The notes beneath the pieces were generated by a model. That model saw only the letters and a list, made by a program, of their open reading frames with translations. It made no database searches and had not been told where the DNA came from. From IMG/VR virus record IMGVR_UViG_3300025276_000030, positions 1-64,000 of that record: DNA of 64,000 nucleotides, one strand, 5' to 3'. This document shows, one piece after another, positions 11,089-63,763 of the stretch (position 1 is its first letter; every line of letters begins with the position of its first letter). The DNA is from a virus. The position numbers and the translations under genes were made by a program.

Positions 11089-11303
11089 TAGTTTATATTT
11101 TTTTCTACTTCAATTATGTTCCAACAATCTAAAGCTATCATTTGAGCTTCGTACCCATCTAAAAAATCATCATCAAATGTGTCATCATAGTATTCATTGC
11201 CGCTATGCCATATTGTGTTACCGTGTAAATCCTCAACTCTACGAGTACAAACGTTACTGTCTATACTAAGTATTAGTTTCATTTCTTTTAATTGTGTAGC
11301 CAT
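11088..11303 (-). CDS. Small acidic protein in adhesin operon
   Basis: This 71-residue protein begins MATQLKEMKLILSIDSNVC and has an acidic stretch YYDDTFDDDFLDGYEAQ. It lies between the fibrinogen-like gene (7 bases away) and the ILEI/LamG gene (TAATG overlap), so it is almost certainly translated. No family is recognised. It could be a small assembly factor for the adjacent adhesins. Confidence 0.6.
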   Translation of the reverse strand: MATQLKEMKLILSIDSNVCTRRVEDLHGNTIWHSGNEYYDDTFDDDFLDGYEAQMIALDCWNIIEVEKNIN

Positions 11304-11309
11304 GATTTT

Positions 11310-12041
11310 TTATTTTATATAGATTGCTCCATAAGCGTGATAATCTGTGGTTGAACTATTATAGTACGGCGCATCACTATACCCTCCTCCAGCAAAGTAG
11401 TTACCGGTCCAGCAAGATGAATACCACCAAGGGTTATTGTTATAGTAAGTTGAACAGTTTCCGCTGTTTGTATCTTGATCTTTATCAAATGTAGTTAAGT
11501 TGTTTTGACTAGTAGCATGAGAGTACAATCCTGGTGTAGTACCTCCTACCTGGTTTACTACATTTGCTGCTCCTTCAAAAGCGTATTCGCTGTTAAATCC
11601 GGTTGCTGTCCAAAAAGATCTTTTAGTATGTGAACTTGTAGCATTTAGTGTAACTATAGATCCTGCTACAAATTGAGTAATACTCATTACATTAGCCGTT
11701 TTTCTTCCAGCTAATTCTAGCCAATATCTACACCCTACCCAGGCGTTGACATTAGTTAAACCCAAATTTTTTATTTGTCTTTTACCTGTTACTAGGGTGT
11801 TAGTAGCATCATCTGTTCCGTCCGTTCTATAGTTAACACTATTTACAGCATCTAGGTACTTAAGGTTATTCATACCGGAAGTATATCCCCTATTTGCTAG
11901 TACCATTATCCACCCTCCTCCATCGTAGTCTTGATCAACGTATACAATTACAGGACCATGAGTTGTTTGTATCTTGTAAAATCCGGATGGTCCTTTAATA
12001 TCAGCTGCGCTGTTGTATACTGGTCCTCTGTGTATTCCCAT
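11310..12041 (-). CDS. Fibrinogen-like (FReD) domain adhesin
   Basis: In this 243-residue protein almost the whole sequence is a fibrinogen C-terminal-like domain. Visible landmarks are GFYKIQT then YDGGGWIMV near the N-terminus, TFDKDQDTNSGNCS (the calcium-site and cysteine region), PWWYSSCWTGNYFAGG (the WW-x-x-C block) and a final YGAIYIK. Such domains bind acetylated sugars or glycoproteins. The N-terminal MGIHRGPVYNSA matches the MGIHRG start of the LamG gene at 21849, suggesting a shared docking peptide. It is coupled by TAATG to the giant S74 fibre. It probably acts in receptor binding. Confidence 0.75.
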   Translation of the reverse strand: MGIHRGPVYNSAADIKGPSGFYKIQTTHGPVIVYVDQDYDGGGWIMVLANRGYTSGMNNLKYLDAVNSVNYRTDGTDDATNTLVTGKRQIKNLGLTNVNAWVGCRYWLELAGRKTANVMSITQFVAGSIVTLNATSSHTKRSFWTATGFNSEYAFEGAANVVNQVGGTTPGLYSHATSQNNLTTFDKDQDTNSGNCSTYYNNNPWWYSSCWTGNYFAGGGYSDAPYYNSSTTDYHAYGAIYIK

Positions 12042-41914: not shown

Positions 41915-43495
41915 CTATACCGCATCTAAGTCAGATACAAATACTTTTCCGTAAAATTCTGGTCTGATCATTTTCTTCGCGTAACGAGTCATGATACCTT
42001 TTCTTGGAGTGAAGGTAGCTGGATCGTATACTAGAGGAGTCATGATTAATGGAACATATGGAGCATATACTGCACCACTTTCTAAGAACTGACCACCTCT
42101 AAATCCTACTAAGATTGTGTTTTCAGTTAAGTAAGGGTTCTTGTATACTTTGTAACGTCCATTTAATTGTCCAACTTTTTGAACACCCATTGCAAATTCA
42201 GCCTGATCTCCGTCAGTTTGTGCAGCATATCCTGGAATTGATTCTAAGATAGTAGCTACAGAAGGAGAACATACTAAGAAGTTTGCTCCACCTCTTAAAG
42301 TTTTCTGGTGAATTTTGTTAGATACTTTTTGGATTTTAGTTCCTAATGTTTGGAACCATTGTCCTTGAGTATTATAGAAGTCAGAAGCAGCATTTGCCCA
42401 AGCAGTTCCGTTCCAGATTCTATTGTTCTGTGCAGACCACTTTTCAGTTGTTCTAGCACCTTGGATTAACATGTCTAATATTTCAAGATCAATTTCCATT
42501 GAAATGTACTCACTTAATAAGTTAGTAAGTTCAGCTTCAGCATCGATTGAATGATAAGCATTAAGATCCTGAGCAAACTCTGGTGTCCATTGTGCTTTCA
42601 ATTTTCTTGTTTTAGCAACAACTGCCTCAGATTTCAACTCTACATTGATTTCTGGAATAGCGATTGGTGATCCTGCAGTAGAATCTTCAAAGTCTCCTCT
42701 TGTATTATCTTTAGGCTGTACGTGATATTTTACATTACCTGTAGAAGGTAAAGCATTACCAGTAAGGTCAGATTTCTTTACAATAAAAGTTACAACGTTT
42801 CCAGCTACAGTAGTAAGTTCTGGATAGTTAGTAACATCAGCAGAAGCAGATACTAATCTAAAAGCTCTTACACCTTCAGCGTCAAATCCAGTTGATGCTA
42901 AATCTACACTTGCTTTTAAGAAGTCTGCTACAGTTAAGTCAGCGTTATATCCTAATGCAGCTACAGTTGCTACAGCAGAAGTAATAGTCTCTCCAGCTGA
43001 AGTTGCAGATTTGATTGAGTAACCAAACTGTCCAGCTCCGTAAAGACCTCCAGAAGGATCAACATCAACTCCGATTTTAGTTCCTGCTTCAGAAACGTTA
43101 CCTGCCATGTTGTCTCCAGCAGCTCTACCACCTTGTGCAGTTCCGTATTTGAAGTCTAGGTAAAATACTAGCCCAGAAGGCAAGTTCATTGGTTGTACAG
43201 AGACAAAGTCTTTAGAAGAGATTTGAGCGAATACTTTACGTACTAATGGTAAAGCTACTCCAGCCCATTGCTCGTTTCCAGCACCTGTAGCGCTAATTGC
43301 GCCTGTTCCTGTAGATGATTGTTCTGCTACGATTTGCTTTGCTTGATTTTCTAGCATGATTGACATAGTGTCAGCCTCTTTGCCAGCTAATCCTTCAAGT
43401 AATCCTGAAGCAGACCATTTGTCAGACAAACGTTGAGCGTCTTCTTGTAACGCTTTGTATCCGTTTGCACTTTCTAATAGTGAATTTAATTCCAT
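41915..43495 (-). CDS. 23: Major capsid protein (gp23-like)
   Basis: This 526-residue protein is nearly the length of T4 gp23 (521) and is probably HK97-fold. Features are a Gln/Glu-rich helical N-terminal delta region, then GNEQWAGVALPLVRKVFAQ, VQPMNLPSGLVFYLDFKYG, the LLSEYISMEIDLEILDMLI helix, the NPYLTENTILVGFRGG strand and the final KKMIRPEFYGKVFVSDLDA. VAE at residues 56-58 is a likely prohead protease site, by analogy with cleavage after Glu65 in T4. It is transcribed with the scaffold gene (26-base gap). The leader is A-rich with no Shine-Dalgarno sequence. Confidence 0.95.
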   Translation of the reverse strand: MELNSLLESANGYKALQEDAQRLSDKWSASGLLEGLAGKEADTMSIMLENQAKQIVAEQSSTGTGAISATGAGNEQWAGVALPLVRKVFAQISSKDFVSVQPMNLPSGLVFYLDFKYGTAQGGRAAGDNMAGNVSEAGTKIGVDVDPSGGLYGAGQFGYSIKSATSAGETITSAVATVAALGYNADLTVADFLKASVDLASTGFDAEGVRAFRLVSASADVTNYPELTTVAGNVVTFIVKKSDLTGNALPSTGNVKYHVQPKDNTRGDFEDSTAGSPIAIPEINVELKSEAVVAKTRKLKAQWTPEFAQDLNAYHSIDAEAELTNLLSEYISMEIDLEILDMLIQGARTTEKWSAQNNRIWNGTAWANAASDFYNTQGQWFQTLGTKIQKVSNKIHQKTLRGGANFLVCSPSVATILESIPGYAAQTDGDQAEFAMGVQKVGQLNGRYKVYKNPYLTENTILVGFRGGQFLESGAVYAPYVPLIMTPLVYDPATFTPRKGIMTRYAKKMIRPEFYGKVFVSDLDAV

Positions 43496-44699: not shown

Positions 44700-45038
44700 T
44701 TAGTTGTCTTTGTCTAATTCAGGATGAAATTTAATATATACCTCTTTTCCATCCTCTTTTATAGACTCTCCGTCAACTTCTATTTCTGCTGGGAATATTT
44801 TAATATCTTCTCCGTACCAGTAGTTTATCTTATACCCTCCTGATGAGGTTAATTCAATTATTAAACCTCTTTTGTAGTCATTTTCTTCTGCTTGTAGAAT
44901 AATTTTCTCACCTCTTGGTAAGATCATTGCTGCTTGTTCTACTTTTCCGCCTCCTGATTCATGACCATCTTCGTTTAATTTGCTGGAAGTTGTTAGTTGA
45001 TTCTCTATTAAGAATTTCTTTATGTTAAAAGTAGACAT
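44700..45038 (-). CDS. Small head-module protein, N-terminal targeting-like peptide
   Basis: This 112-residue protein begins MSTFNIKKFLIENQLTTSS. The rest is beta-rich (EKIILQAEENDYKRGLIIEL, NYWYGEDIKIFPAEI). The FLIE and later SKLNE segments resemble prohead protease sites (L/I-x-E), so it may be packaged in the head and processed. It follows the 185-residue gene by 12 bases and ends just before a terminator. No named family is recognised. Confidence 0.55.
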   Translation of the reverse strand: MSTFNIKKFLIENQLTTSSKLNEDGHESGGGKVEQAAMILPRGEKIILQAEENDYKRGLIIELTSSGGYKINYWYGEDIKIFPAEIEVDGESIKEDGKEVYIKFHPELDKDN

Positions 45039-45050
45039 ATTAGTTAGTGT

Positions 45051-45608
45051 TTATGATATTAAATCTTCTACAGCATCTTTTATAAGGGAGCTGATTTCTT
45101 TTCCTTTAATTAACGCTTTACCGCTATATGCTGCTGCTGTTGCCCATTTAGTCTGTCTTAATAAGCTTACCGCTTCTCCTCCTGCTTGTCCTGCCATACC
45201 AAAGATTACTATAGCATATAAAATCTTGGCTATACCCTGTTTTTTCTTTTCATCTTTAGTGAATATACCAACTATACGTTTAATAGGTGCCATAAATGCA
45301 GCTTCATTCTTATGAGTAAAATTAAACCACCAATCAGCGGAATTCATCATCCCGGGTTTGTTGTATTTTTTAGCTAACCACTTAAACATCTTAGATAGCA
45401 TGTTTGCTACAGTATTAGATAGCAATATATACCCTAGAATCCCAATTATAGCTGATTCATTAACATCTTTTGCTGGAGTTACTAAAGCATCTTTGTTATC
45501 TTCTAATTCCTTCTCGATTGATTGAGCTAATTTAGAAGCCATTGCATCCATTCCGGGTTCAACGGTGTACTCCTCTTCTTTTTCAAATAAAATACTGTAT
45601 AGTTTCAT
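45051..45608 (-). CDS. Head-module membrane-like protein
   Basis: This 185-residue protein starts MKLYSILFEKEEEYTVEPGM. Two hydrophobic segments, IIGILGYILLSNTVANML (about 53-70) and ILYAIVIFGMAGQAGG (about 129-144), could be membrane-spanning. Basic residues lie between them. The N-terminal ILFE resembles a prohead protease site. Membrane-active proteins packaged in heads are known in large phages, but this is a guess here. It is coupled by TAATG to the protease gene. Confidence 0.55.
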   Translation of the reverse strand: MKLYSILFEKEEEYTVEPGMDAMASKLAQSIEKELEDNKDALVTPAKDVNESAIIGILGYILLSNTVANMLSKMFKWLAKKYNKPGMMNSADWWFNFTHKNEAAFMAPIKRIVGIFTKDEKKKQGIAKILYAIVIFGMAGQAGGEAVSLLRQTKWATAAAYSGKALIKGKEISSLIKDAVEDLIS

Positions 45609-46186
45609 TAAGCTCTTAGTATATCGTTAATAATAGTATCTAGACCATTATACTTACTTACTTTCTGGGTTCCTTCTTGTAATGTGATTGGATTCATATA
45701 AGCTCCATGAGTAGACGGGTTAGAAACAAAATCCCAACATACTAATTCGAAATCAGGCTGTACTTCCAGTGTACCTTCGTTTGTCTGATTGACAGATCCA
45801 GTACCTCTAGATGATATTCCTATTGTATGTCCTGCTTTAATTATCTCTTTAACGATATTACCTGCAGGAGTATTTAGTAGCTCTACGCGTCCCATAAGGT
45901 CGTTTCCTTTCCACCATAACTCTTTTACTATGTGAGAGGCGTTCTTTAAGGAGACAATTGGAGACTCAGGGTGATCCAGTTCTCCGAATGCATTACCGTT
46001 CTGTACAAACTCTTCTATGTACTTCTTAGATTCTCTCTCTAATATCTCCTTACTATAGGTACGTCCGTTTTGGTTTTTAGCTACTGCTCTTTGCATAACA
46101 CCTTCTACTTCATATACTCCGGGTCTATCTTTAGATTCCTTAAGTAATGATTTAAACGGAGTTACCTGTATTAGTAATTGTGCCAT
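45608..46186 (-). CDS. 21: Prohead core protease (gp21-like)
   Basis: This 192-residue protein is a serine protease of the herpesvirus-assemblin-like prohead group. The conserved GELDHP gives His72, and GISSRG gives Ser125/Ser126 as nucleophile candidates. NRTYSKEIL-like sequence near residue 41 (NGRTYSKEILE) and ELVCWDFVSNPS near 148 complete the family pattern. Its job is to cut scaffold, capsid N-terminus and internal proteins, usually after L/I/A-x-E. T4 gp21 is 212 residues. It sits between the 738-residue protein and the 185-residue gene, in the expected order before gp22 and gp23. Confidence 0.93.
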   Translation of the reverse strand: MAQLLIQVTPFKSLLKESKDRPGVYEVEGVMQRAVAKNQNGRTYSKEILERESKKYIEEFVQNGNAFGELDHPESPIVSLKNASHIVKELWWKGNDLMGRVELLNTPAGNIVKEIIKAGHTIGISSRGTGSVNQTNEGTLEVQPDFELVCWDFVSNPSTHGAYMNPITLQEGTQKVSKYNGLDTIINDILRA

Positions 46187-46188
46187 AA

Positions 46189-48405
46189 TTATCTTTTCTT
46201 TTTAGTCTCCCTTAATGTACCGTTGAATGGAGCTGAGTATACTGTTTGCTTAGCTTCTTCTTCTGCAATGTCAGGTGTTCCCATATTAGGCCTGTCTATT
46301 TCTGCTCTAGAGATAGTCTTTACTTTAGGTAATTCTACTTTCTTTATAAAGCCTCCTTTAAGTACTGGTCTAAGATCTTGTTTAAAAGCTGATTCTAACG
46401 ATGGTGCAATAAATGCTCCTATATTAAGTCCTTCTTCATTTTTAAAATCAGCAGTTTTACTAAATGTATCTGCTATTTTGTCTCCAATCTTATCGTAGAA
46501 TTGCTCTATTTCTGTAACAATGTTCTCTAGTGAATTAACAACTGGTTTAACGCCTGGGAATGTTTCATAACTTGAACCCCAGTCTGCTAATTTGTTTGTT
46601 GCTGCTTCATTTATTGTTCCTTCTTCTAGTACTTTAGCAATAATTGATTTTAAGTTCTCTTTAACTAATTGCTCATCTTTGTTCAATGCTTTCTTAATAG
46701 CTTTATCTTTACCAGCCATATAATCATCTGCGTCTACATCTCCGTCTCCGTCATGATCTTTTCCTTTCTCTTCTTCTAAGTTCTCAACTATAAATTGAGT
46801 TTCTAAGTAACTAAGTAAGTCTTTTTTAGCATGTTCTATCATTCCAGGTTCTGTCATAGGACCCATCTTCCATTCTTCCCAAGCTTCAATTAAAAAATTA
46901 ACACCTTTATCTAACTTAGGTCCCATACTTTCAACATATCCACCAGTTTCGTAGTCATTTTCTGTTACGACTTTTCCACCTGTAGCCTTCTTTCTTCTTC
47001 CTTCTGCTAGTTTTCCGTATGTTTTAGATCTTTTACCTTCGTTTTGCTTTCTGGAAGGATCTACTCCTTCGTTAAAGCCTAGTAAAGTTTGCTTAATAGC
47101 TTTTCTAAAGTTTCTTAAGTGGTCTAATGCTTCTACCTTGTCCTTTTCTTCTATAGATTCAATAGCATACGACAAGTGGCTTGCTTCTGAGTGGTAGTTA
47201 ACATCTGTAAAGGAGTCAAATATATCTATAAGGGTATCAATAGGAGTGTTTAACCTAACCTTTAATCCTGCTTCCAACATACCTTCATAATCGAAGTCTG
47301 ATGAGAACATTTGTCCTGGTTTGTAAGGTTTAACTATATTATCTTTTTGACCGTACTTCTCGATATCTTTCATATCTTGATCAGTCATTGCTTCGTCTAC
47401 ATCTTCTTCATCAATCTCTATCTCTTGCATGTTGTCAATACTGTCTCTATTGATAGTATCGTACTCATTGTAGTTGCTCCAAATATCTTCTATATCTTGA
47501 ACATCTATATCTCCTGAGAATATATCATCTTTGTGTGTTCTGATAAATTCTAATGCTTGATCTGTATTAACTTTAAATCCTTTTTCATCTCCTACAATGG
47601 TTAATGCATCAATAACTTTTCTCATAGCCATTTTTCTATTTGCATTAGACATCACAACGTTATACATCTTACCGTCTTCTCCTCTTTCCATTCTACCTGG
47701 GGATGTTGGTATTGGTTCTGCTTCTGACATTTCTCCTCCTAAGTAAGCGTTTGATATATCTCTATAATCAACTTCTTCTTCTTGTCCGTCTTTGTCAACT
47801 GCAAAAACAATATCGTCATGCCACATAGCAGCATTGTCGTCGTTATTGGAGTTTGGATTATATATTATTAATTCTCTTCCGTCTACTAGTTGAATGAAAG
47901 CATCATCGGCACTTCCTAAAGCTTTTATTAAAGTGTCTTTAGTGTAGTTCTCTTTTAACTCTACTTTTTTCATTCCGTTTTCTTTATCTACTTCTTTTCC
48001 TTTTGCATACTCAACTGGTTTGTCATGCTTATCTACCTTAGTAGACTCACCTGCCATTATATTAAGGTAGTGTAAAGGATCTTTGATTAGATTAGCTAAT
48101 GCTTTATCTTTAGCTTTAGCTTGATCTTCTACTGATACAGAGTCTTGAGACATTCTTCCCATTTCTTCTATTTCAATATCAGCTCCTCGCCGTATTGCTT
48201 CATCTGATAAGTTATGATGCTTCAAAGCTTTGTCTTCTGCTTTTTCAGAAATCAGTCCCTTATTTTTGAGAATTGATACAGTATCTTCAAATCCATTGAA
48301 TTGAGATAGTAAATTTGGCATAGCCATGCGAGCATCTCTTACGAATTGCGTTTTGTTAAACGTTTCGTTTAGTACTCCTCTATATTTTTCAGTTAACGTT
48401 TTCAT
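46189..48405 (-). CDS. Large head-associated protein with EF-hand-like loop
   Basis: This 738-residue protein is acidic and helical. It starts MKTLTEKYRGVLNETFNKTQ. Residues 550-561 read DHDGDGDVDADD, followed by a YMAGKDKAI helix, which matches an EF-hand/dockerin-type calcium loop seen in related capsid-module proteins of marine T4-type phages. VLNE near the start could be a prohead protease site. It precedes the protease gene by 2 bases and overlaps the 73-residue gene by 17 bases. It is probably a packaged internal or core protein. The function is unknown. Confidence 0.6.
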   Translation of the reverse strand: MKTLTEKYRGVLNETFNKTQFVRDARMAMPNLLSQFNGFEDTVSILKNKGLISEKAEDKALKHHNLSDEAIRRGADIEIEEMGRMSQDSVSVEDQAKAKDKALANLIKDPLHYLNIMAGESTKVDKHDKPVEYAKGKEVDKENGMKKVELKENYTKDTLIKALGSADDAFIQLVDGRELIIYNPNSNNDDNAAMWHDDIVFAVDKDGQEEEVDYRDISNAYLGGEMSEAEPIPTSPGRMERGEDGKMYNVVMSNANRKMAMRKVIDALTIVGDEKGFKVNTDQALEFIRTHKDDIFSGDIDVQDIEDIWSNYNEYDTINRDSIDNMQEIEIDEEDVDEAMTDQDMKDIEKYGQKDNIVKPYKPGQMFSSDFDYEGMLEAGLKVRLNTPIDTLIDIFDSFTDVNYHSEASHLSYAIESIEEKDKVEALDHLRNFRKAIKQTLLGFNEGVDPSRKQNEGKRSKTYGKLAEGRRKKATGGKVVTENDYETGGYVESMGPKLDKGVNFLIEAWEEWKMGPMTEPGMIEHAKKDLLSYLETQFIVENLEEEKGKDHDGDGDVDADDYMAGKDKAIKKALNKDEQLVKENLKSIIAKVLEEGTINEAATNKLADWGSSYETFPGVKPVVNSLENIVTEIEQFYDKIGDKIADTFSKTADFKNEEGLNIGAFIAPSLESAFKQDLRPVLKGGFIKKVELPKVKTISRAEIDRPNMGTPDIAEEEAKQTVYSAPFNGTLRETKKKR

Positions 48406-49490: not shown

Positions 49491-51386
49491 TTAGTCTTCT
49501 AAATCTTTAAGTTGTGACTCATCTAATAGTTTAGATTCACGTTCTTTTTTGTTCTCAAAGACCATTTCCTTCTTCTCATTAAAGGAATCCTTAATTTGAT
49601 GGTATATAGTTTGTGCTTTTGTTGTGTTAGTATCTTCTGTACTTTCCGAGACATTTTCATTGTCTGAGTCAAATCCTCCATGCATGCCGTGTACACCTAA
49701 TCTATCTCTTCCTCCTATAGGATCTGCATTGGTACCGTATACTGATGCTTTCTCTTTAGGTCTTCCGCCTTTGGCTGCTTTCTCATCATACCCTGGAGGT
49801 ACATTACCTGAACCTTTCTCTGTAGCAGTAGCTCTTCTACCGTACATAGACGCTAAATCATGAGGAGTACCGTAAGATCTACCGGATGATGCAGGATCGT
49901 TTCCTTCAGCCTCTACTTGTGCTATTCTAAAGGTTCTCTTAGCATCTTCTCTAACTAAGTCTCTCATCTCATTATACTTATCTTCTGATAAATTAAAGAT
50001 ATGGTCGTATATATAGTCAGTTGAGAACATTTTAGAGTCTTTCATCTGACCTGCTAAGTCAATTTTTTCTTTTAGTAATGCTACTTTTTCTTGTTCGTAT
50101 ATTACTGATGGGTTAGTTAACTTAATTTCGAAGTTAGTTAAGCTTTCTCCTGTGAAGCCTTGAGTATATAAATGTACTAAAGCTATCTTTGTTAATTCCG
50201 ATTCTACTATCTTCTGTATTCTTTCTACTGTTCTTGCGAATCTAATATCTTCTGCCGCTAAAGTAGCTTTACCACTAAGATCCCCTTCATAGCCGAAGTA
50301 TGCTTTAGGTATCTTTAAAGCAGCAAATAACTTAGCCTGTAGGTATTGTATATCGTTAGTACCATCGTATTCCAGACCTTTAGTTGTCTCTATTCTTGTT
50401 GATGCATCTCCACCTCTAACAGGAACATAGAAATCTTCCATCATGTTCTGCATATTAAACTTCAAATTGTATTGCCCAGTTTTGGAGTCTACAAATGGAG
50501 TCTTCTTCATAGTGTTGATAGTCTTTTGCATGAACTGATCTACCTCTGCTGGAGGTATAGAACCTACATTTACAAAGAAAGTTCTCTTTTCAGGTGCTCT
50601 CATGATACGGTGTATAAGCATCGCATCTTCCATTAGAGTTAACTGTTTGAATATTTTTCTAGCTGGTTCAATAAATGACCTTCCGTACGGTAGATAAGCA
50701 TGATCTGATATTAATCTAAAGTGTGCTACCTCGTAGTTGTCTAAAGCTATAATTTTACTATTTTGTGATGGTATGTAGTTAGGGTCTTGAGTTGATGCTA
50801 ATCCGTCAGGGTTGATAGTAAACTGTACTTCTGATGGTTTCTCTGGATCTACTCCTTCGTGTCGTGCCATATTGTATACCGTATAAGGTAGTACGTTGTA
50901 CACTCCGAACTTTTCTGCGATTTCTAATTTTAAGAAGTAATCTCCATGCTTACACATTCCTCTAACCCATGACCATAGGTTAAACTCTATATTAAGTACA
51001 TCGTAGAAGAGGTTATAAAGAACTCTTTGTAAGTTCTCATCTGAAGATTTAATTGCTAAAACTTCACCCATATCGTTTTTAAGTGTAGCTTCGTCTGCTA
51101 ATATGTCTAATGCTGATGCTATGATAGGATCGGTGTCCATTGCTTCATAATCGGAATATAGCTGTACTCTTAATGTTTGGTAATTTAATACGGGATTAAA
51201 TATATTCTTATTATTGTGAATATGTAATCTTGAAAATCTATCGATCAGAGAGTTGGTTTCAAAGTTACCTGTTGTCTGTATCTGATTTATATCAGCTACC
51301 TTAAGCTCTCTTCCTCCGATGTTTCTAATAATTACATCAGAAGAGAAAAGTCTCTGTAGTCTTGGAAATAGTGATTTATCTGCCAT
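49491..51386 (-). CDS. 20: Portal protein (gp20-like)
   Basis: This 631-residue protein (T4 gp20: 524) has portal landmarks: LYSDYEAMDTDPIIASALDI near residue 80, EVAHFRLISDHAYLPYGRSF near 219-238, RAPEKRTFFVNVGSIPPAEV near 265, FYVPVRGGDASTRIE near 318 and KLFAALKIPKAYFGYEG near 350. The C-terminal 110 residues are Gly-rich and acidic and extend beyond T4. The product forms the dodecameric ring through which DNA enters. It follows the terminase gene with a TATTTATA motif 28 bases upstream. Confidence 0.93.
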   Translation of the reverse strand: MADKSLFPRLQRLFSSDVIIRNIGGRELKVADINQIQTTGNFETNSLIDRFSRLHIHNNKNIFNPVLNYQTLRVQLYSDYEAMDTDPIIASALDILADEATLKNDMGEVLAIKSSDENLQRVLYNLFYDVLNIEFNLWSWVRGMCKHGDYFLKLEIAEKFGVYNVLPYTVYNMARHEGVDPEKPSEVQFTINPDGLASTQDPNYIPSQNSKIIALDNYEVAHFRLISDHAYLPYGRSFIEPARKIFKQLTLMEDAMLIHRIMRAPEKRTFFVNVGSIPPAEVDQFMQKTINTMKKTPFVDSKTGQYNLKFNMQNMMEDFYVPVRGGDASTRIETTKGLEYDGTNDIQYLQAKLFAALKIPKAYFGYEGDLSGKATLAAEDIRFARTVERIQKIVESELTKIALVHLYTQGFTGESLTNFEIKLTNPSVIYEQEKVALLKEKIDLAGQMKDSKMFSTDYIYDHIFNLSEDKYNEMRDLVREDAKRTFRIAQVEAEGNDPASSGRSYGTPHDLASMYGRRATATEKGSGNVPPGYDEKAAKGGRPKEKASVYGTNADPIGGRDRLGVHGMHGGFDSDNENVSESTEDTNTTKAQTIYHQIKDSFNEKKEMVFENKKERESKLLDESQLKDLED

Positions 51387-51428: not shown

Positions 51429-53003
51429 TTATAATAACCAAGATATATCTTCTTGTTCACCAGTGCCGTTATCCATAAGATACGGATTATTTTGTTGTTC
51501 TCCAACTGTTTTCATGATTCCTTTGTTCTGAGCGTTTAGGTTCTGAAAAGATGATAGCTGTGCTCTAGCTAGGTCTAATCCCTGTTGTCTCATTCTTAAT
51601 GCAGTATCTCTTACATATAGTGCAGTTGCACAAGAGATAAGCAAATCATCATTGTAGTTTGTCTGAGCTTGTGGTTTACCGTTCTTCCATACAAAGACTC
51701 TCATTTCACCTATTAACCTTTTTGACTGTATAGTTACTCCTTTTTCACGTATATACTCAATCATCTTAGCAATAACAAGAGGTCTAGTTCTAACGGACAT
51801 AGTAAAGCCGGGTACTAGTTTATCTCTTTCAAATTTACTCATATATGATTCTACTGTTTCCGTACTGGATGTAGAACTGTAGTATAGGTTCTTATATTCA
51901 CGTGCCATTATCTGTTCTATTGTAGCCCAGCCTATATTAGCATTTTCACATACTAATAGTGCATCGTTGTACTCTGATGCTATACCTACCAGTACGTTAC
52001 CGAATTCCTTTGGTGATATCTTACCTTTATACTCTCCTACTTGAACTGCATTTTCTATATCAAACACATGGAATGCTGAATAATCAGCTGAGTCTCCTCT
52101 TGCGACATCTGCAACTACCATATAAGATTTAGTGAAGTCAACTCCTTCCCATATCCATAAGTTACCATCAACGCCTCTTCTTTCAAGAGGGTCTTTTAAG
52201 TACGTTTGTTCGTAAAATAACATATCATCTGGTTCGAATACAGTGTCCCCAGAAGCTAAGAAATCACAATCACACTCTTGACCTGCCATACGTGGTCCTA
52301 GGTCTCTATCTTGTTGATCTCTCCATACTTGATTCCTCTCAGGGTGTACCGTCCAAGGTAGTCTTACAGGAAGAAATGAATTTTCTCCTGATTCAGCTTT
52401 ATCCCAGGTTTGGTGAAACCAGTTACCAATACCGTTAGGAGTTGATAATGCCATACACTGTCCACCGGTTGCTAAGGTTTGTTGTGCAGCTGTAAACGTT
52501 TCTTCAATGTTATCAATAAAGGCTGCTTCATCGATAAGTAGTAGTGATACTGCCTCAGATCTTGCTGCATCGGCGTTAGAAGACTTAGCTGTGATTTTAG
52601 ATCCATTTTTTAGTCTTAATGATAATTTGTTTTTCTCTACTGCCGGTAGCCTTAACCATTTAGGTAGCTGATCGTACATAAACATTGTCTTAGATACTAG
52701 GTTACGTGCTGTTGCTTGTGTAGTTGCTAGTGCTAGAACGTTTTTATCTTTATGGAATAACATCAACCATAATGAGTACCCTGCAGCTAAAGTAGAGATA
52801 CCTAACTGTCTAGATTTTAAAGTAATAAGAAATTGATTATCTCTAAAGAGATGTAGTACCTTACCTTGAAAAGGGTATAGGTTAAATAATATACGGCCTC
52901 TAGTAGGGTGCTGTATATAACAGTACTTCTTCATGAAGTATTCCGGATCCTTAGCACACTTGATATACTCCTGTGCTATGATCTTTTTTATGTCTTGTGC
53001 CAT
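51429..53003 (-). CDS. 17: Terminase large subunit (gp17-like)
   Basis: This 524-residue protein (T4 gp17: 610) has an ATPase and a nuclease domain. ATPase: Q-motif-like YPFQGKVLH (43-51), a Walker A-like KSRQLGIST (63-71), Walker B SLLLIDEAAF (153-162) and coupling motif LSTPNG (186-191). Walker A has Ile where T4 has the P-loop Lys, and Lys63 may substitute. Nuclease: Asp299 in MVVADVARGD, Glu353 in LLVCEN, and Asp452/453 in NDDLL. It packages DNA with the portal. No small terminase (gp16) is evident nearby. It begins 3 bases after the 412-residue gene and has no promoter motif of its own. Confidence 0.95.
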   Translation of the reverse strand: MAQDIKKIIAQEYIKCAKDPEYFMKKYCYIQHPTRGRILFNLYPFQGKVLHLFRDNQFLITLKSRQLGISTLAAGYSLWLMLFHKDKNVLALATTQATARNLVSKTMFMYDQLPKWLRLPAVEKNKLSLRLKNGSKITAKSSNADAARSEAVSLLLIDEAAFIDNIEETFTAAQQTLATGGQCMALSTPNGIGNWFHQTWDKAESGENSFLPVRLPWTVHPERNQVWRDQQDRDLGPRMAGQECDCDFLASGDTVFEPDDMLFYEQTYLKDPLERRGVDGNLWIWEGVDFTKSYMVVADVARGDSADYSAFHVFDIENAVQVGEYKGKISPKEFGNVLVGIASEYNDALLVCENANIGWATIEQIMAREYKNLYYSSTSSTETVESYMSKFERDKLVPGFTMSVRTRPLVIAKMIEYIREKGVTIQSKRLIGEMRVFVWKNGKPQAQTNYNDDLLISCATALYVRDTALRMRQQGLDLARAQLSSFQNLNAQNKGIMKTVGEQQNNPYLMDNGTGEQEDISWLL

Positions 53004-55898: not shown

Positions 55899-58800
55899 TT
55901 ATTTAGTTCTACAATGTTTAGCTCCTTTTAAGTAAGGTGTTTTACAGTTACCTTTAACATGGACTCTTCCACATTTACCGCAACAAGTTGCTTTACTCTC
56001 CTTTAAGATCTTACCGTCTTTAATTCTACTGTGTGCGATTCCATGTACATCTCCATTTCCAAAATCTACAGTAGCTTGAGTTAAAGAGTATTTAGTAACT
56101 TTTCCTCTTCTACCGTTTAGAGTTAATGTATCTCCTACTTTTACTTCATTAGTTAACTCTTTAGTTTTTGAGTATTTAACTTTAGAACCTTCTTCCATGT
56201 GTCTTTTTCCTAGTCCCTGTAATACTCTTAGATCTTGTACGTACTCATCTGTTTTGACTAATACCATACCTAAGTTAATGTCTTCACCCTCTGGGTCTTT
56301 AAATAAGGTTATTCGGGTTACTTTAGGATTAAAGGATGGATCTTTGTCTTTAAAGTTATTGTTATAGTATTGTGTTTGATGCATTTGGTAATCTTCACCT
56401 TCATGCTTTAGTTTATGGTATTGAACGTGAACAAACATTGGTGCATATTGTCCCATTCTAGCTTTAATATCACTCTTGTCATGAGCATGTAAAGCTTTAA
56501 TTGCAGCATCTTCACTTGCTGCTCCTTTAGGAAGTAAATCTGCAAATATCTGCTTTCCAAACATATCAGGTGAATTTTTAGCTACCATCCTTATAATATC
56601 AGCTCCTTCAAATGCATTGTCTGTGAATTCTTTTATAATTTTATTTTCAGCTATACCATCAAATTTTCTTTGTTTTAAAGCTGCCATAATAGAGTAAACA
56701 GCATCTTGTTCGGAATACCCATATCTCTTAGCCATTGCTTTGATAAATTGTGCTACTTTTTTAGAAACTTCTGGGTTTAGATTTTCATTTACTGATTCGT
56801 CATAAGCGTCGATAATGTAGGTATCCCTTAAAGCTTCTATTATTTCTAAAGCTGCTTCTTTGGGAGTTGTACCGTCTTCATTAGCCATATCAGTAACAAT
56901 TTGTACGATAGCATCTAAATCTCCTCTTCCTTCTTTAATTGATTCATTATAGTCATCGTCATCCTCTCCAAAGTAGAACCCTAAGTTCTCTAATTCATCA
57001 TTACTAAATTCATCACCTAATTTTTCTTGGAAGTCTGATATGCTACCAATCCATTCCATTATTACTTCTACACAGCCAGGATTATCTTCTATAAATTCAT
57101 CAAATCCCTGTCTATATCCTAGGGCTCCAAATATCTCATCTAGGTTTCTAGCAGCAGACTCCTTTACTAACTTACCTAGGTATTTAGCTTGAGCTCCATG
57201 TCCTTTAACAGAGTTTTTTAATTGACCTACTATCTTTTTAACTTTCTTAACTTCCCCTTTATCTAACTCCTCTGGAAGTTCATTATTATCGTAGTCGTTT
57301 TCTTCTCTTCTGTAATCCTCATAATCTGTTTGATCACTTCCTTTGGCAGCGTCTAATATATCTCCTAATTCTGCATCTGCTTCCATTTCTGGATTAATTA
57401 ACGTAACAGAGTTAGGTAAATCATCTCCTCTTCCAATATGAAGTTCGTAATCTTGACCTTCTTTATATCTAGAAGCTAAATAATTAACAGCTGATTCGAT
57501 ATTGTCTAGATCAAATCCAAAAGTAAATAGACTATCATCTGTAAATCCAGCTTCACTTAGGTGCTTAGCTTTTGCTGCAGCGAAATCTCCTTTATATAGT
57601 TGGTTAACAATCTTACGTCCTAGTGCTTCTAATTGATCTAAAGTTAATGTGTGTTGTTTTTTAAATCCTGCAAGGTATGCTTTTCCAATATCTCCATATT
57701 CTGCGGGATCTATTGCGTTTTCATTTGCACTTGTATCTACTTGTCTATCATCATAGCGAACTGCTTTACCTTTTCTAGCTTTCTCTATAGCGTTATCTAT
57801 TTTGTTTAGTATATCTCCATACTTGTCAGAGATTGGTCCTCCTTGCGGTTCTGCCTCTTGCTCCATGTCTCTCATCACTTGATCTCTTTTAGCTTCAAGT
57901 TTATCTATGATTGCTTTTACTTTAGGAGAGTTACCAGATACTTTTTCCCAATTTGGGTTACGAGTAGGTTTGGTATTCTTTTTAATTTTATCTAATTTTT
58001 TCATGTCTCTGCCATGTTGATTAATCACTCTAGTTTTCATAGCCCAGTCGCTATTATCTGCTGCTTCATCCACTTCTACTGACTGATCTGCTAATTCAAT
58101 ATCGTTTGCTCTTAAGTCCATAACTACATCATATAAAAATGCTTCTGGATCTTCTTCTGTTTCTTGGTAAAATTCTGAGTCTTTATTATCTGAGTCATCG
58201 TACATGTCGTCGAAGTCTGTTTGATGCTTAAAAATAAAGTATATGATTGTATTCCCAGCTCCATCGTCATCTACTACATCCATTTTAACGTAAGTTGGAT
58301 CAACATTTTGATCTAAGATAGCCATAGCCTTCTTATAATCATGTGATTTTACTTTTATGTAGTGGTTTTTACCTCCGTTACTTTCTTCGCTTAGAGATTT
58401 CCAGTGTTTCTGTAATTCATTGGTTAGTACGTCTACATTAATTATAGGTTCACCTGATGGTTTTGTTCCTACGTTAACTAGTACCTTGTCAAAGCTAAAA
58501 TCTACTAAGTGTAGTTCGTCATTAGAGACATAAAATGAAAACTCATCGTCTCTTAATTCTCCTTTATATGTTACCTGTACTTCAAAAGAGTTAGGTTCAA
58601 CTCTAATTGCTTTCATACTACCAACTTCGTCTCCTAGTGCTTTTAAGGCTTTAGCAACTGCTCTTCCAACTTCTTTAGCTAGTAGTTTAGTTTCTAATTG
58701 AGTAAACTCAATTCCTTTATCTTTATCATCTTCCTTAATTGTTGACCCTTTCGCGGTATCAATACCGGTTATTGCTGGGTCTTTCTTTAAGTCCATTGCT

Positions 58801-59036
58801 GCTTTTCTATCCATTTTTACAGCTTTAGTGTCTCCTGCTTTTGTAGTAATGAACATAGTTTCGCCTCCTTCTTCTATTAAGTGAAGTTTAGCTGTGAGAG
58901 ACTCCTTAATGGTATTTAATTGTTGAACTGATTTAGTCGCAAATTGCATATCTAATGCTGGTGCATTATTTCTGTTGATACTCTCTAAAGCTGTTTCAAC
59001 TTGTGATAGACGAGATTTTAATTCTTCGTACGTCAT
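55899..59036 (-). CDS. Large modular head-module protein with KOW-like and zinc-finger C-terminus
   Basis: In this 1045-residue acidic protein the N-terminal 50 residues are coiled coil (MTYEELKSRLSQVETALESI), then HLIEEGGE, another possible prohead protease site. The middle is a mosaic of small acidic domains. Residues about 964-1010 (VKVGDTLTLNGRRGKVTKYS) look like a KOW/SH3-like barrel. The final 30 residues hold CCGKCGRVHVKGNC then HC, a probable zinc-binding knuckle. It heads the packaging unit, with TATTTATA 28 bases upstream. It could be a packaged nucleic-acid-binding protein. The function is unknown. Confidence 0.55.
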   Translation of the reverse strand: MTYEELKSRLSQVETALESINRNNAPALDMQFATKSVQQLNTIKESLTAKLHLIEEGGETMFITTKAGDTKAVKMDRKAAMDLKKDPAITGIDTAKGSTIKEDDKDKGIEFTQLETKLLAKEVGRAVAKALKALGDEVGSMKAIRVEPNSFEVQVTYKGELRDDEFSFYVSNDELHLVDFSFDKVLVNVGTKPSGEPIINVDVLTNELQKHWKSLSEESNGGKNHYIKVKSHDYKKAMAILDQNVDPTYVKMDVVDDDGAGNTIIYFIFKHQTDFDDMYDDSDNKDSEFYQETEEDPEAFLYDVVMDLRANDIELADQSVEVDEAADNSDWAMKTRVINQHGRDMKKLDKIKKNTKPTRNPNWEKVSGNSPKVKAIIDKLEAKRDQVMRDMEQEAEPQGGPISDKYGDILNKIDNAIEKARKGKAVRYDDRQVDTSANENAIDPAEYGDIGKAYLAGFKKQHTLTLDQLEALGRKIVNQLYKGDFAAAKAKHLSEAGFTDDSLFTFGFDLDNIESAVNYLASRYKEGQDYELHIGRGDDLPNSVTLINPEMEADAELGDILDAAKGSDQTDYEDYRREENDYDNNELPEELDKGEVKKVKKIVGQLKNSVKGHGAQAKYLGKLVKESAARNLDEIFGALGYRQGFDEFIEDNPGCVEVIMEWIGSISDFQEKLGDEFSNDELENLGFYFGEDDDDYNESIKEGRGDLDAIVQIVTDMANEDGTTPKEAALEIIEALRDTYIIDAYDESVNENLNPEVSKKVAQFIKAMAKRYGYSEQDAVYSIMAALKQRKFDGIAENKIIKEFTDNAFEGADIIRMVAKNSPDMFGKQIFADLLPKGAASEDAAIKALHAHDKSDIKARMGQYAPMFVHVQYHKLKHEGEDYQMHQTQYYNNNFKDKDPSFNPKVTRITLFKDPEGEDINLGMVLVKTDEYVQDLRVLQGLGKRHMEEGSKVKYSKTKELTNEVKVGDTLTLNGRRGKVTKYSLTQATVDFGNGDVHGIAHSRIKDGKILKESKATCCGKCGRVHVKGNCKTPYLKGAKHCRTK

Positions 59037-60314: not shown

Positions 60315-60887
60315 TTACAGCTTACTCTTTAGATAAGTAATATATTCCTCAAATTTTTCAGTCATTTTCTTCTTTTCTTTTGTCTTATCTACTGTCCAAG
60401 CTTCTATATCTCCTTGTTCCGTAACAAAAGTTTCTTCTGAGTCCATTACATCTGCAAATTGTTGTTCTAGTTCCTTTATCCATAGGGTCAGGTTACCTTT
60501 TCGTGCATGTAGTAAGTACTCTTCATATACTCCGGTTCTTCTCATTTCTGCTTCCCATTCTATAAAGCAATTAAAACACATCTTATTAATCTTATAAATC
60601 TGCTTACTTAGGAAATAAGACATTGTGCCACTACATTTTGGACAATTAAGAGGTATCTGTACTGCTTTTTTTGCAGCATCTAATTTAGTTATGTTTTGCT
60701 TTAACCCATCTTTTACTGTCCACTTCTTACCGCCTTCTTCCCACACCTCTCCTTCAGAGTGTTTTTCATCTATACGGGTATATCCTGATTGAGCTTTAGT
60801 TTTAGAAGTATAGTCTTTTCTAACTAAATTTCTAATTCTCTCTACATCTGAATGTTTAAATTCTTTTTTTAGTTTACTATCCTTCAT
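60315..60887 (-). CDS. Zinc-ribbon protein of unknown function
   Basis: This 190-residue protein has, around residues 81-107, CPKCSGTMSYFLSKQI then MCFNC, a zinc ribbon with two C-x2-C pairs. The N-terminal part has VRKDYTSKTKAQSGY and GEVWEEGGKKWTVKDG. Similar proteins with this layout occur in T4-type marine phages but lack an assigned role as far as I know. It overlaps the HAD nucleotidase gene by 11 bases. It could bind nucleic acid or a protein partner. Confidence 0.6.
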   Translation of the reverse strand: MKDSKLKKEFKHSDVERIRNLVRKDYTSKTKAQSGYTRIDEKHSEGEVWEEGGKKWTVKDGLKQNITKLDAAKKAVQIPLNCPKCSGTMSYFLSKQIYKINKMCFNCFIEWEAEMRRTGVYEEYLLHARKGNLTLWIKELEQQFADVMDSEETFVTEQGDIEAWTVDKTKEKKKMTEKFEEYITYLKSKL

Positions 60888-61470
60888 AACCTAACTCTTT
60901 TAATCCGTTTAAAGCTTCAGTGATATCTCCATCTTTTACTCTAAATGCGATACCTCCAGCAGCTCTCCATTGTTCTATATTAGATGGTTTATCATCAATT
61001 AAAATACTATTTTCGTTAGCATAACTCTGTTTATTAGCTGAGTATGCAAATATAACTCTAGGTTTAGGTTCTAGGTGATTCTTTACCCAAAGTTGTTTTC
61101 CTAATCTAGAACTATTATCCCTTGATGGTGATGTAAGTAGTTCAGGATTGTATCCTTTTATAAATGCCCATAGCCTTTGACCATTCGGCATCCAGTTCAT
61201 TCCTGCCCAAAAACCTACTCCTACTGTCTGGTCTATAAATTTCCAAAACTCTTTCATTCCAAATATACGTTCAAAGTCTTTTGGTTTCTCTACTTTAGAA
61301 ATATCCCTCATTGGGTAAAAGTCTTTACCTACAGTATTTAGTTTTTCATGAAATCTACTTTCAAAGTCTGTTAAGACTCCGTCCATATCACAGTAAAGTT
61401 TATACGGTGGTCTACTTTCTTGTTCTGGAAGCGGGTATGCTTCTAATAAGTCTACTATACTATTACTCAT
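60877..61470 (-). CDS. HAD-type 5'-nucleotidase
   Basis: This 197-residue protein has the HAD nucleophile motif YCDMDGVLTDF (Asp28, Asp30), motif II in LLTSPSRDN (Thr113), a likely catalytic Lys around residue 125-130 (KQLWVK) and the acid pair in ILIDDKPSNI (Asp159, Asp160). The order and size match 5'(3')-deoxyribonucleotidases of the NT5C type, which dephosphorylate nucleoside monophosphates. It may adjust nucleotide pools or clear a specific nucleotide during infection. A TATAAATA octamer in the canonical T4 late-promoter orientation lies 16 bases upstream. Confidence 0.85.
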   Translation of the reverse strand: MSNSIVDLLEAYPLPEQESRPPYKLYCDMDGVLTDFESRFHEKLNTVGKDFYPMRDISKVEKPKDFERIFGMKEFWKFIDQTVGVGFWAGMNWMPNGQRLWAFIKGYNPELLTSPSRDNSSRLGKQLWVKNHLEPKPRVIFAYSANKQSYANENSILIDDKPSNIEQWRAAGGIAFRVKDGDITEALNGLKELGYEG

Positions 61471-61550: not shown

Positions 61551-62828
61551 TTATTTCTTAGTCTTATGTAATGCTTTTCCTGCCTTCTTAGCCGCCTTAA
61601 ATGCTTTAGAGTTACCGTGAGATGCTTTCTCACCTCGTTTTTTCTTAGCATTTATATTAGCCCATAGTCCAGGTTTTTTAGCTTCATCGGTTGGGTTCTT
61701 AATAGAGTCTTCCCAATTTCTGAATGTTATATTACCAATTGTGTAAGCTTCTTTTTCTATTTCTAGTAGTGAATCGTCTTCGTTAGTATTCTGAGTGTTT
61801 ATATTAGTTAACCTTCCTTCTAAGTTCTGAGTGTGGTGAACCATTTCATGAGAAAAAGATCTCACTATATCTTTCATATGTCTACCGGAAGTAAATAATA
61901 CGATTTCTTTTGCATTAGGGTCATAATGAGCTGTGCTACCGAAGAAGTTTGATGCATTTAATTCATCTTTTCTTACTGTAACTTCAGGAAGTGGCATTAT
62001 ATTCATACCGTTATCCACCATGTACTCTACTAATGATCCTATAAAGTCTTTTAGCTCTAACTCATTTTTTGGTTTATTATCATGACCACATTTATGACAG
62101 ATGTATAAGTCATCTCCTCCATCCTCTATGTCCCAATTCCAATCGCAATTGTCACATTCAATTTTATCACCTACAATAGCTTCATTTACAAAGTAATTGT
62201 CAATAAATCCTTCAAGGTTATTTGCTAATATCTCTGACACTATCTTATCTTTAAGGTCTGTTAATATGTTAATAATTTCTTCACTAGATAACTGTTCAGG
62301 AAAGAAATCTGCTACTTTATCTAAATTACCTGATAGTATGGTATTTCTAAAATCTGTAGCTCTAATACCTGATCCAGGTGCTGCTGCATAAGCTAATCCT
62401 TTTACGTTAGGAGCATTTTTAAATGTTGTTACTCTTCTTAAATCAACGAAGTCTTTATCTCCTCTTATTCCTGTAACTGATACAAATTCTTGATCTGGGT
62501 TTGCTTGAGCGTGATCTTTTGCTGCAAACATTGGATTTGCTCCTCCATCTCTTATTTCTACATTGCCTAGGTACTTAGAGTATAAGTCCCATATAGCCAT
62601 TGACTCTGCTTTTGTTATACCGTTTCTCTCACCGGCTCCAACAAACACTATAACTTTCTCTATTTTAGGTTTAGTCCCTTGTGTACCTTTAAGTAGTTCC
62701 GCTCCTGTTTCTTTATAGTTATCCTTATCGTAGATTGCTCCGCTATAAGAATTATCTAATAGAGATTTAACTACATTAAAATGACCTCTATGAGGTGGTT
62801 TATATGCTCCAGGGTATAGTGCTATCAT
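61551..62828 (-). CDS. Nucleotidyltransferase / zinc-ribbon / HExxH metallopeptidase-like fusion
   Basis: This 425-residue protein appears to have three domains. Residues 1-180 are a cytidylyltransferase/NMNAT-like fold: YPGAYKPPHRGH has H13-x-x-H16 (HxGH class), with GSGIRATDFR near residue 152 as the second nucleotide site. Residues 225-247 have CDNC and CHKC, a zinc ribbon. Residues 320-370 hold SFSHEMVHHTQN (HExxH at 327-331) and, 30 residues on, EIEKEAY, a likely third metal ligand as in gluzincins. The tail has KKPGLWANINAKKKRGEK, a basic motif known from cyanophage proteins. It overlaps the kinase gene by ATGA. Confidence 0.7.
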   Translation of the reverse strand: MIALYPGAYKPPHRGHFNVVKSLLDNSYSGAIYDKDNYKETGAELLKGTQGTKPKIEKVIVFVGAGERNGITKAESMAIWDLYSKYLGNVEIRDGGANPMFAAKDHAQANPDQEFVSVTGIRGDKDFVDLRRVTTFKNAPNVKGLAYAAAPGSGIRATDFRNTILSGNLDKVADFFPEQLSSEEIINILTDLKDKIVSEILANNLEGFIDNYFVNEAIVGDKIECDNCDWNWDIEDGGDDLYICHKCGHDNKPKNELELKDFIGSLVEYMVDNGMNIMPLPEVTVRKDELNASNFFGSTAHYDPNAKEIVLFTSGRHMKDIVRSFSHEMVHHTQNLEGRLTNINTQNTNEDDSLLEIEKEAYTIGNITFRNWEDSIKNPTDEAKKPGLWANINAKKKRGEKASHGNSKAFKAAKKAGKALHKTKK

Positions 62829-63763
62829 GCTAAAAATGCTTGTAATTTAGAATCTATCTCCTGTGGAGTAGAGTGTTGTAGTTTGTCTTGAAAAAGAGGG
62901 CTATATAACATATCGGCAATATTATCTAATACCTCAGTATCTTTAAGGTTATTCTTTTCTTTACTAGCTCTGTACTTAAGTACTGCTGCTTTAAGTTTAT
63001 CCTGTCCTGGACCTACTCCATTCTTTCTAAAGAACTTCAAAAATTCATTCTTGATTGCTTTATCTTCTGAGCGATTACCTTTATCCCATTGTACGCTTCC
63101 TACATGAGTAGAAAACTCTTTTTCCTCTCCATCTTCCCATTCTATTGGCTTAAAGAAAGAAGATCCTCCAATACCGTTTTCCTGATTATACTTAGTAAGA
63201 TAGTCTTTTATCCCGCCAGTACCTTTTTCAGCAGCTATATTAAATGCTTGTATTGGTTTATCATACTTACCTCCAAAGTCATTAACGAATATGGACATCT
63301 TACCTTTTAACTTTTGATTAAACTCTCCTATTTTTTGGTATGCATTCCTCCAGGTGGAGAATACAGCAGTTCTAGGTACATTTCTTTCTCTTTCAAAGTT
63401 ACTAATATAGGATATCATTGGATGAGAGTAAACCATGACCATATAAATATCAAAATTCATTTCAATAAGGGAAGCTAAAGTTTTATCAAACCCCACTCCT
63501 GAAGCAGTTGTATCCCATACAAAGCTAGTTTTAGATTGAGCTGCTGCTTGTACGTCTTTTGTAGTCTGTTTAGCTGCTGCTCCTAGGTTATTGTGGTACG
63601 CATGCTCTGGGTCCTCAATATATTTATCTGGGTTGAATTGTTCAAGACTATCTAATGACAATTGACGTAAGAGGTAGGTCTTTCCTGATCCTGCTCCTCC
63701 GGCCATTATTACTGCTTTTGGTCGGTCTGATCGTTCGAGTATTAAGTCTGATAGTTTGATCAT
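62825..63763 (-). CDS. Zeta-toxin-like P-loop kinase
   Basis: This 312-residue protein has Walker A GGAGSGKT at residues 22-29 and SFVWDTTASG near 79-88 in the position of the substrate-aspartate region. Then RERNVPRTAVFSTWRNAYQK (125-145) holds the arginines and helix of zeta-toxin/chloramphenicol-kinase-like enzymes. The N-terminus MIKLSDLILERSDRPK is a short helix ending LILE. Phage kinases of this type phosphorylate small molecules or nucleotides; the substrate cannot be predicted. It is translationally coupled to the nucleotidyltransferase gene. Confidence 0.75.
   Translation of the reverse strand: MIKLSDLILERSDRPKAVIMAGGAGSGKTYLLRQLSLDSLEQFNPDKYIEDPEHAYHNNLGAAAKQTTKDVQAAAQSKTSFVWDTTASGVGFDKTLASLIEMNFDIYMVMVYSHPMISYISNFERERNVPRTAVFSTWRNAYQKIGEFNQKLKGKMSIFVNDFGGKYDKPIQAFNIAAEKGTGGIKDYLTKYNQENGIGGSSFFKPIEWEDGEEKEFSTHVGSVQWDKGNRSEDKAIKNEFLKFFRKNGVGPGQDKLKAAVLKYRASKEKNNLKDTEVLDNIADMLYSPLFQDKLQHSTPQEIDSKLQAFLA

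Follow-up and report, generated by a model that had tools for sequence, protein, structure and literature searches.

The window analysed here is a 64-kb stretch of a 70.9-kb record of a marine T4-like virus. It contains an open reading frame with an ATG start (61551-62828, minus strand) that encodes a protein of 425 amino acids, here called P0001; homologues support the reading frame, and the plus strand across the same interval carries stop codons throughout. An original prediction had placed an HxGH motif, four zinc-ribbon cysteines, HEMVHH, and EIEKEAY in one 425-residue protein, and all of these elements were located on the minus strand, as are the features described below. Residues 1 to 200 (62229-62828) are predicted, from a structural model, VIA-align comparisons, and PHROG matches, to form an HxGH nucleotidyltransferase domain with a PPAT/NMNAT-like fold. 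This domain contains HRGH at residues 13 to 16 (62781-62792) and RATDFR at residues 156 to 161 (62346-62363), which we take to be the counterpart of the superfamily's ISSTxxR motif. It is followed by a predicted gp21-type prohead protease site, V-N-E/A (residues 214 to 216, with 217 after the cut; 62181-62189; slashes mark predicted cuts throughout), and by a zinc ribbon module of the form CxxC...CxxC, recognized from sequence (residues 218 to 253; 62070-62177), whose cysteines lie in CDNC and CHKC. Next comes a zincin-type metallopeptidase domain assigned by model and VIA-align (residues 258 to 378; 61695-62057). Within it, HEMVHH (residues 327 to 332; 61833-61850) is the predicted catalytic HExxH motif, and E358 (61755-61757), in an ExxAY pattern inside EIEKEAY (residues 356 to 362), is the predicted third zinc ligand. 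Residues 384 to 425 and the stop codon (61551-61679) make up a basic tail module that begins KKPGLWANINAKKKRGEK. A basic tail is thus present as originally claimed, but the stretch LWANINAKKKRGEK that had been taken as the end of the protein is not terminal, since 24 residues (ASHGNSKAFKAAKKAGKALHKTKK) come after it.

P0001 lies within a head operon whose genes share its strand. This operon encodes a gp17-type terminase large subunit (51429-53003; phrog_2, 1.3e-48), a gp20-type portal protein (49491-51386; phrog_213, 1.3e-62), a gp21-type head maturation (prohead) protease that is the predicted processing enzyme (45608-46186; phrog_207, 1.9e-54), and a gp23-type major head protein whose first 58 residues contain several LxE sites (41915-43495; phrog_138, 7.5e-74). 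Directly upstream of P0001, with a 4-base overlap, lies a gene for a Zeta-toxin-type P-loop kinase (62825-63763; Pfam Zeta_toxin, 5.7e-10), and downstream lies a 5'-nucleotidase/HAD gene (60877-61470; NT5C, phrog_2643) whose product begins MSNSIVDLLE/AYPL. In related contigs, the kinase-like gene and the 5'-nucleotidase are found again, either next to the P0001-type chain or as part of it, and loci L161, L162, L163, and L165 have a comparable HAD/5'-nucleotidase-like domain fused to this chain. The N-terminus of the window's Zeta-toxin/AAA-type kinase, MIKLSDLILE/RSD, resembles a capsid targeting peptide, and a kinase homologue in L161 (Pfam Zeta_toxin, 4.9e-17) begins MISLVQLLRE/A; a kinase carried in the head, if true, would be notable. 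Two further head-region proteins of 1045 and 738 amino acids (55899-59036 and 46189-48405, minus strand) look modular, and the larger ends in a Cys-rich segment after ILKE/S. The tail region encodes a pair of giant repetitive proteins (2826 and 2884 amino acids; 12041-20521 and 24392-33046, minus strand) that are probably tail fibres; the 2826-residue protein ends in a sequence like an S74 intramolecular chaperone (SDSRLKENIKPI).

Homologues of P0001, judged from their sequences, are abundant in T4-like phages of Bacteroidota. Scans of viral contigs found 260 stretches with relatives of P0001 and 102 with relatives of a homologue from Flavobacterium phage immuto, which a search of isolated phages had found; the best 80 and 76 loci were kept. 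The immuto homologue is QQO91862, in which VMAE/GRYD and VVKE/GSSG are predicted gp21-type sites; the laboratory host of immuto is Flavobacterium sp. LMO8. Five contigs from metagenome-assembled genomes also carry homologues, two of them named Flavobacteriales and Winogradskyella, and on the strength of these and immuto the host group is most likely Bacteroidota. Of the 116 homologous open reading frames first collected, 111 carry both domains; in other phages the two occur as separate genes. Two frames of this first set encoded only the nucleotidyltransferase and three only the zincin, in part because contigs were cut. Fusion of the two domains is not universal, as L111/L183, L164, S-SRM01, and B23 show. 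On the contig shared by L111 and L183, neighbouring frames (L111, 5001-6641 and 6646-8148) encode the nucleotidyltransferase part and the zincin part separately. A small separate HExxH protein (L164, 6372-6740; TLIHEYVHYLQ) adjoins a zincin gene that has no nucleotidyltransferase. In L081, the immuto homologue (11122-13845) is extended at its N-terminus by about 290 residues, whose GS...DxD pattern resembles that of pol-beta nucleotidyltransferases, and the gene preceding it (10212-11120) has a similar GS...DxD-like pattern.

Both enzymatic domains of the original prediction are backed by fold and by invariant active-site residues, so that neither of the observations named there as refuting it arose. 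A full-length AlphaFold model built from a 62-sequence alignment was confident for both domains and poor for the ribbon, with pLDDT mostly above about 90 in the nucleotidyltransferase. The best VIA-align comparison of this domain was with PPAT structure 5h16 (Z 15.0, rmsd 2.4, 154 residues); PPAT/CoaD structures in general scored Z 13-15, and NadM, NadD, and NMNAT scored about 12. PHROG cytidyltransferase profiles matched 36 and 12 of the 62 members, and H16 and R161 are invariant in all 62. The predicted PPAT/NMNAT-type Rossmann-like fold and the T/HxGH and ISSTxxR-type motifs place the domain in the HxGH nucleotidyltransferase superfamily. It resembles PPAT/CoaD, NMNAT, and NadD in fold and in the T/HxGH and TxxR motifs but differs from them in showing about 20% identity, insertions, and no curated family match: P0001 scored 15.1 bits against a cut-off of 103.3 for TIGR01510 and 13.7 against 127 for PRK01153, reached no Pfam or NCBIfam cut-off, and had no sequence match in the PDB.

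The zincin domain was also folded alone, the VIA-align list for the full-length model having been filled by the nucleotidyltransferase with no zincin listed. The isolated model (ma7a075d0fd45) had a mean pLDDT of 94.8 and places HExxH (helix 62-80) and the invariant glutamate (E102, helix 96-121) on the helices where zincins have them. VIA-align scores were 8.1 for Wss1, 7.7 for IrrE and ERAP1, and 7.4 for SPRTN, with BepA within Z 7-8; a Z near 8 denotes moderate similarity. Foldseek returned IrrE and selecase at high probability but with E above 0.01. The HExxH helix, the third-ligand glutamate in the next helix, and this moderate overall fold similarity identify a predicted zincin-like metallopeptidase. 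The domain shares with IrrE/ImmA, Wss1/SPRTN, selecase, and other zincins the HExxH helix, a second helix with a glutamate (ExxA), and a minimal zincin fold (Z 7-8). It differs from IrrE/ImmA, Wss1/SPRTN, and selecase in that its profile matches no solved structure in the PDB at E 10 and finds only weak Pfam matches, DUF6782 and Peptidase_M91, below cut-off. Conservation is strong. Homologues lacking HExxH had been named as evidence that would count against the original prediction, and the motif is present in 103 of 103 distinct homologous zincin domains. H327, E328, H331, and E358 are invariant in an alignment of 62 proteins, as are the same residues (numbered H71, E72, H75, and E102) in 74 domains with approximately 50-77% identity to the window's domain.

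The regions around these two domains are built from mobile modules. Depending on the homologue, the zinc ribbon stands before the peptidase, after it, or is absent; we considered whether the ribbon is integral to the enzyme and rejected this, as most homologues do not have it and its position changes. The modules of the family are the ribbon, the GLWANI tail, HEIEH (a second HExxH-type module), QAEE, KKPKG, DAIEAYADK, and GRSKPG, and all except HEIEH and the linker module LYNYL also turn up elsewhere in these loci, in different proteins. When changes were counted on a tree of the zincins from 78 representatives, the ribbon (found in 9) required 9 and the GLWANI tail (found in 9) required 8; the tree has few resolved forks and is an indication only, but these many changes suggest that both modules come and go or move repeatedly. 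The basic tail module was found in 36 distinct copies with a mean net charge of about +9, many of them in other proteins of related loci. GLWANI (+9 per copy), KKPKG (+22), and GRSKPG (+12) are strongly basic, like the small basic internal proteins of T4. A stand-alone QAEE module is encoded in the window (44700-45038, minus strand; E 2.1e-39), and in homologue L033 this module is inserted between both domains. The HEIEH module, with VRHEIEHLTQ and then EIDAMIQGLY, occurs in L163 and many homologues (e.g., L014, residues 403-627), usually C-terminal to the first zincin. Chains of 795-1203 amino acids (L162, 270-2654; L163, 3340-6948; L165, 4258-7608) combine a nucleotidyltransferase, a basic module, a zincin, and a HAD/5'-nucleotidase-like domain and have LxE at most borders; some of them also include a zinc ribbon or HEIEH, the latter once or twice.

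The prohead protease gp21 of T4 cleaves after L/I-X-E (PMC9026906). In the linkers of 78 representative homologues, [LIVM]xE occurs 283 times, about twice the 133 expected from shuffled linkers. Controls with altered spacing or reversed order were not enriched ([LIVM]E, 130 observed and 138 expected; [LIVM]xxE, 135 and 127; E.[LIVM], 147 and 132), and inside the two folded domains [LIVM]xE is slightly depleted (437 and 474). The linker z-score of 15 is inflated by the shared history of related sequences, a descent that the spacing controls share. Of 80 distinct internal module starts, 74 have a site no more than 3 residues away, compared with 14% of random positions; because the HEIEH seed had been anchored on E-G, the count without HEIEH, 23 of 29, should be read beside this figure, and common ancestry inflates these counts too. 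At the HEIEH border, P3 is M, L, I, or V in 45 of 45 distinct contexts, and P2 is variable. A site lies in the inter-domain linker of 74 of the 78 representatives, against 61.7 expected from shuffling, a count that is weak by itself. In P0001, the stretch between the two enzymatic domains contains, modules aside, a single such site, FVNE/A at 216, which separates the nucleotidyltransferase from the zinc ribbon, fits the gp21 rule, and is a predicted cleavage site. Some borders do not follow the pattern: only 3 of 9 GLWANI copies in the family have a site nearby, the basic tail of P0001 is preceded by PTDEAKK rather than LxE, and in four freshwater homologues the domains are joined by an 11-residue linker with no site. 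When sites were counted over whole proteins of the window, most large head proteins were not enriched, so the signal lies in linkers rather than everywhere.

Sites of the same kind also occur at N-termini. In T4, the first approximately 10 residues of IPIII suffice for packaging (PMC9026906). Stand-alone ZnR, GLWANI, KKPKG, and DAIEAYADK modules mostly begin 0 or 1 residue past a site in a short hydrophobic N-terminus, such as MKKSELINAIKEVLAE/, MPLTLAQLIGE/, or MKKSQLKETIKEILKE/, and freshwater homologues begin MNSLVKSLIQPILE/ with the nucleotidyltransferase immediately after. Within the window, a site in the first approximately 20 residues is found in 14 of 20 head-region genes (5.2 expected) compared with 5 of 31 elsewhere (5.2 expected). 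Relatives of the two domains in cyanophages show similar starts: nucleotidyltransferases begin MKKFSAFLNE/A, MKKFSAFLSE/A, or MKSFTSFFTE/A, and a zincin begins MNYKQFLRE/S. In S-SRM01, the zincin and nucleotidyltransferase genes adjoin; the nucleotidyltransferase begins MKNFHQFITE/A, and a clear targeting peptide is missing from its zincin neighbour. An N-terminal targeting peptide is absent from P0001, which starts MIALYPGAYKPPHRGH, and from its nearest homologues, and the open frame of P0001 could be extended by only about 6 residues. S-SM1 SSM1_190 belongs to cluster T4-GC190, a putative citidylyltransferase that Sullivan et al. detected in purified S-SM1 virions (PMC3037559). When 12 sequences were searched with the nucleotidyltransferase profile of the P0001 family, SSM1_190 matched with E 8e-9. 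At 24-31% identity, the cyanophage proteins are distant relatives, and the link between SSM1_190 and the P0001 nucleotidyltransferase is remote but consistent.

Based on the enrichment of [LIVM]-x-E in linkers, the stand-alone modules with targeting peptides, and the presence of T4-GC190 in virions, we consider it probable that P0001 is a cassette-built head-cargo precursor of a T4-like Bacteroidota phage, cut by a gp21-type protease and with its parts ejected into the host, rather than simply a bifunctional enzyme. The parts of this account backed by data are the folds, the invariant active sites, the exchange of modules, the enrichment of sites at borders, the prohead protease gene, and the targeting-like peptides on relatives; we infer the cleavage, packaging, and ejection of P0001 and both classes of target. 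P0001 would be made late, together with the head genes, and packed into the prohead alongside the scaffold. There, the phage's own gp21-type protease would cut after E216, freeing the nucleotidyltransferase from a fragment composed of the zinc ribbon, zincin peptidase, and basic tail. Both fragments would remain in the capsid with the DNA and be ejected into the host in the manner of T4 Alt and IPI. There, the substrate of the nucleotidyltransferase may be a small molecule or a macromolecule, and that of the zincin a host protein. The action on a host target that was originally proposed is plausible. The proposal of nucleotide transfer and proteolysis in one polypeptide holds insofar as both domains are present, but the fused chain is probably a precursor with FVNE/A between them. 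Counting against the head-cargo account are the missing targeting peptide of P0001, the absence of a site before its tail, and the four homologues with directly joined domains.

We weighed these data against other explanations. P0001 could instead be a stable, unpackaged bifunctional enzyme that is made during infection and works in the cytoplasm, modifying and cleaving a host target as originally envisaged. The co-occurrence of both domains in most of the frames first collected and the tightly joined, site-free freshwater homologues favour such an enzyme, but the head-operon location, the targeting-like peptides on relatives, the site enrichment, the cyanophage relative in virions, and the existence of separate-gene versions make it improbable in our judgement. 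It is also rather unlikely that P0001 is a self-processing polyvalent protein in which the zincin domain cuts its own chain before or after ejection. Iyer et al. proposed that zincin peptidases embedded in such proteins set the domains free, with P1 DdrB as the cited case (PMC5512222), and the zincin active site is invariant in the P0001 family. However, the border motif has the known specificity of T4 gp21, is also found on proteins with no zincin (stand-alone modules and cyanophage proteins), and is accompanied by a gp21-type protease encoded by the phage itself.

Two further explanations are not exclusive of the head-cargo account. The zincin and its partners may be packaged but act inside the prohead in capsid maturation, for example by trimming scaffold or propeptides, which would be the same as that account until ejection. 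The strong conservation of the zincin (mean column identity 72%) and its link to the head are in keeping with this role, but T4 head maturation uses gp21 (PMC9026906), and the modules linked to the zincin are kinases and nucleotide enzymes, which have no evident role in maturing a capsid; we regard such a role as unlikely. We are similarly doubtful that P0001 is a salvage enzyme for NAD or CoA (NMNAT or PPAT) whose fusions are incidental, an explanation that concerns only the substrate of the first domain. The fold fits PPAT as well as NadM/NadD/NMNAT, and the immuto homologue is annotated as a nicotinamide mononucleotide adenylyltransferase. Against this, all sequence matches are under the curated NMNAT/PPAT cut-offs, HxGH has become HLAH or HKAH in the immuto group (G to A), and a common fold does not give the substrate. 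Either the salvage substrate or the prohead role could coexist with packaging.

Extending the head-cargo account beyond P0001, we lean, with some reserve, toward the view that a whole group of T4-like Bacteroidota phages makes the cargo of its heads in the form of shuffled polyproteins. The cassettes, namely nucleotidyltransferase, zincin, zinc ribbon, the second HExxH module, 5'-nucleotidase, and basic DNA-binding peptides, would be joined in changing order with gp21-type sites at their borders, the prohead protease would act like the polyprotein protease of an RNA virus, and acquiring an LxE border would be enough to make any cassette part of the injected payload. If so, annotations such as "NMN adenylyltransferase" in these phages would denote one piece of a packaged payload rather than a metabolic gene. 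The presence of LxE borders in products of the head operon would then serve as a simple sequence rule for picking out, among the many unknown proteins of abundant marine and freshwater phages, those that travel in the capsid and enter the host at infection, and the T4 capsid-targeting idea would widen from single proteins to concatenated, exchangeable cassettes. A search of literature available without subscription found no earlier account of LxE/gp21-type sites bordering shuffled cargo cassettes.

Three known systems invite comparison. Polyvalent proteins are multidomain phage and plasmid proteins in which a zincin peptidase is the commonest domain, and for those of phages, packaging and injection have been predicted (Iyer et al. 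2017, PMC5512222); the original statement that no system with this architecture had been described was thus too strong. P0001 has at least two biochemically unrelated domains in one phage polypeptide, and its relatives have up to several further modules, so the family shares with polyvalent proteins many unrelated enzymatic domains per chain and a zincin-like metallopeptidase. It differs in its T4 gp21-type border sites, the targeting peptides on stand-alone versions, the processing we propose by the prohead protease, and an HxGH rather than pol-beta nucleotidyltransferase as partner; an HxGH nucleotidyltransferase and zincin bounded by gp21-type sites were not found in the description of polyvalent proteins (PMC5512222). 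T4-GC190 of S-SM1 is a related HxGH-class nucleotidyltransferase of a T4-like phage that, with its MKKFSAFLNE/A N-terminus, was detected in virions (PMC3037559). Its similarity to P0001 is remote and it has no zincin in the same protein, the S-SRM01 zincin being a neighbouring gene. T4 IPI-III and Alt, which comprise small basic proteins and enzymes delivered into the host, carry a short targeting peptide at the N-terminus, with LxE or IxE at its end, and are processed by the prohead protease (PMC9026906, PMC3012670). Such a peptide is absent from P0001 but present on freshwater homologues and cyanophage relatives, and the phage encodes its own gp21-type protease. The P0001 family is like these T4 proteins in the peptides of its relatives, the proposed processing, the small basic proteins, and the proposed delivery of enzymes to the host, but T4 makes one internal protein per gene, whereas the P0001 family consists of concatenated, shuffled cassettes with internal sites.
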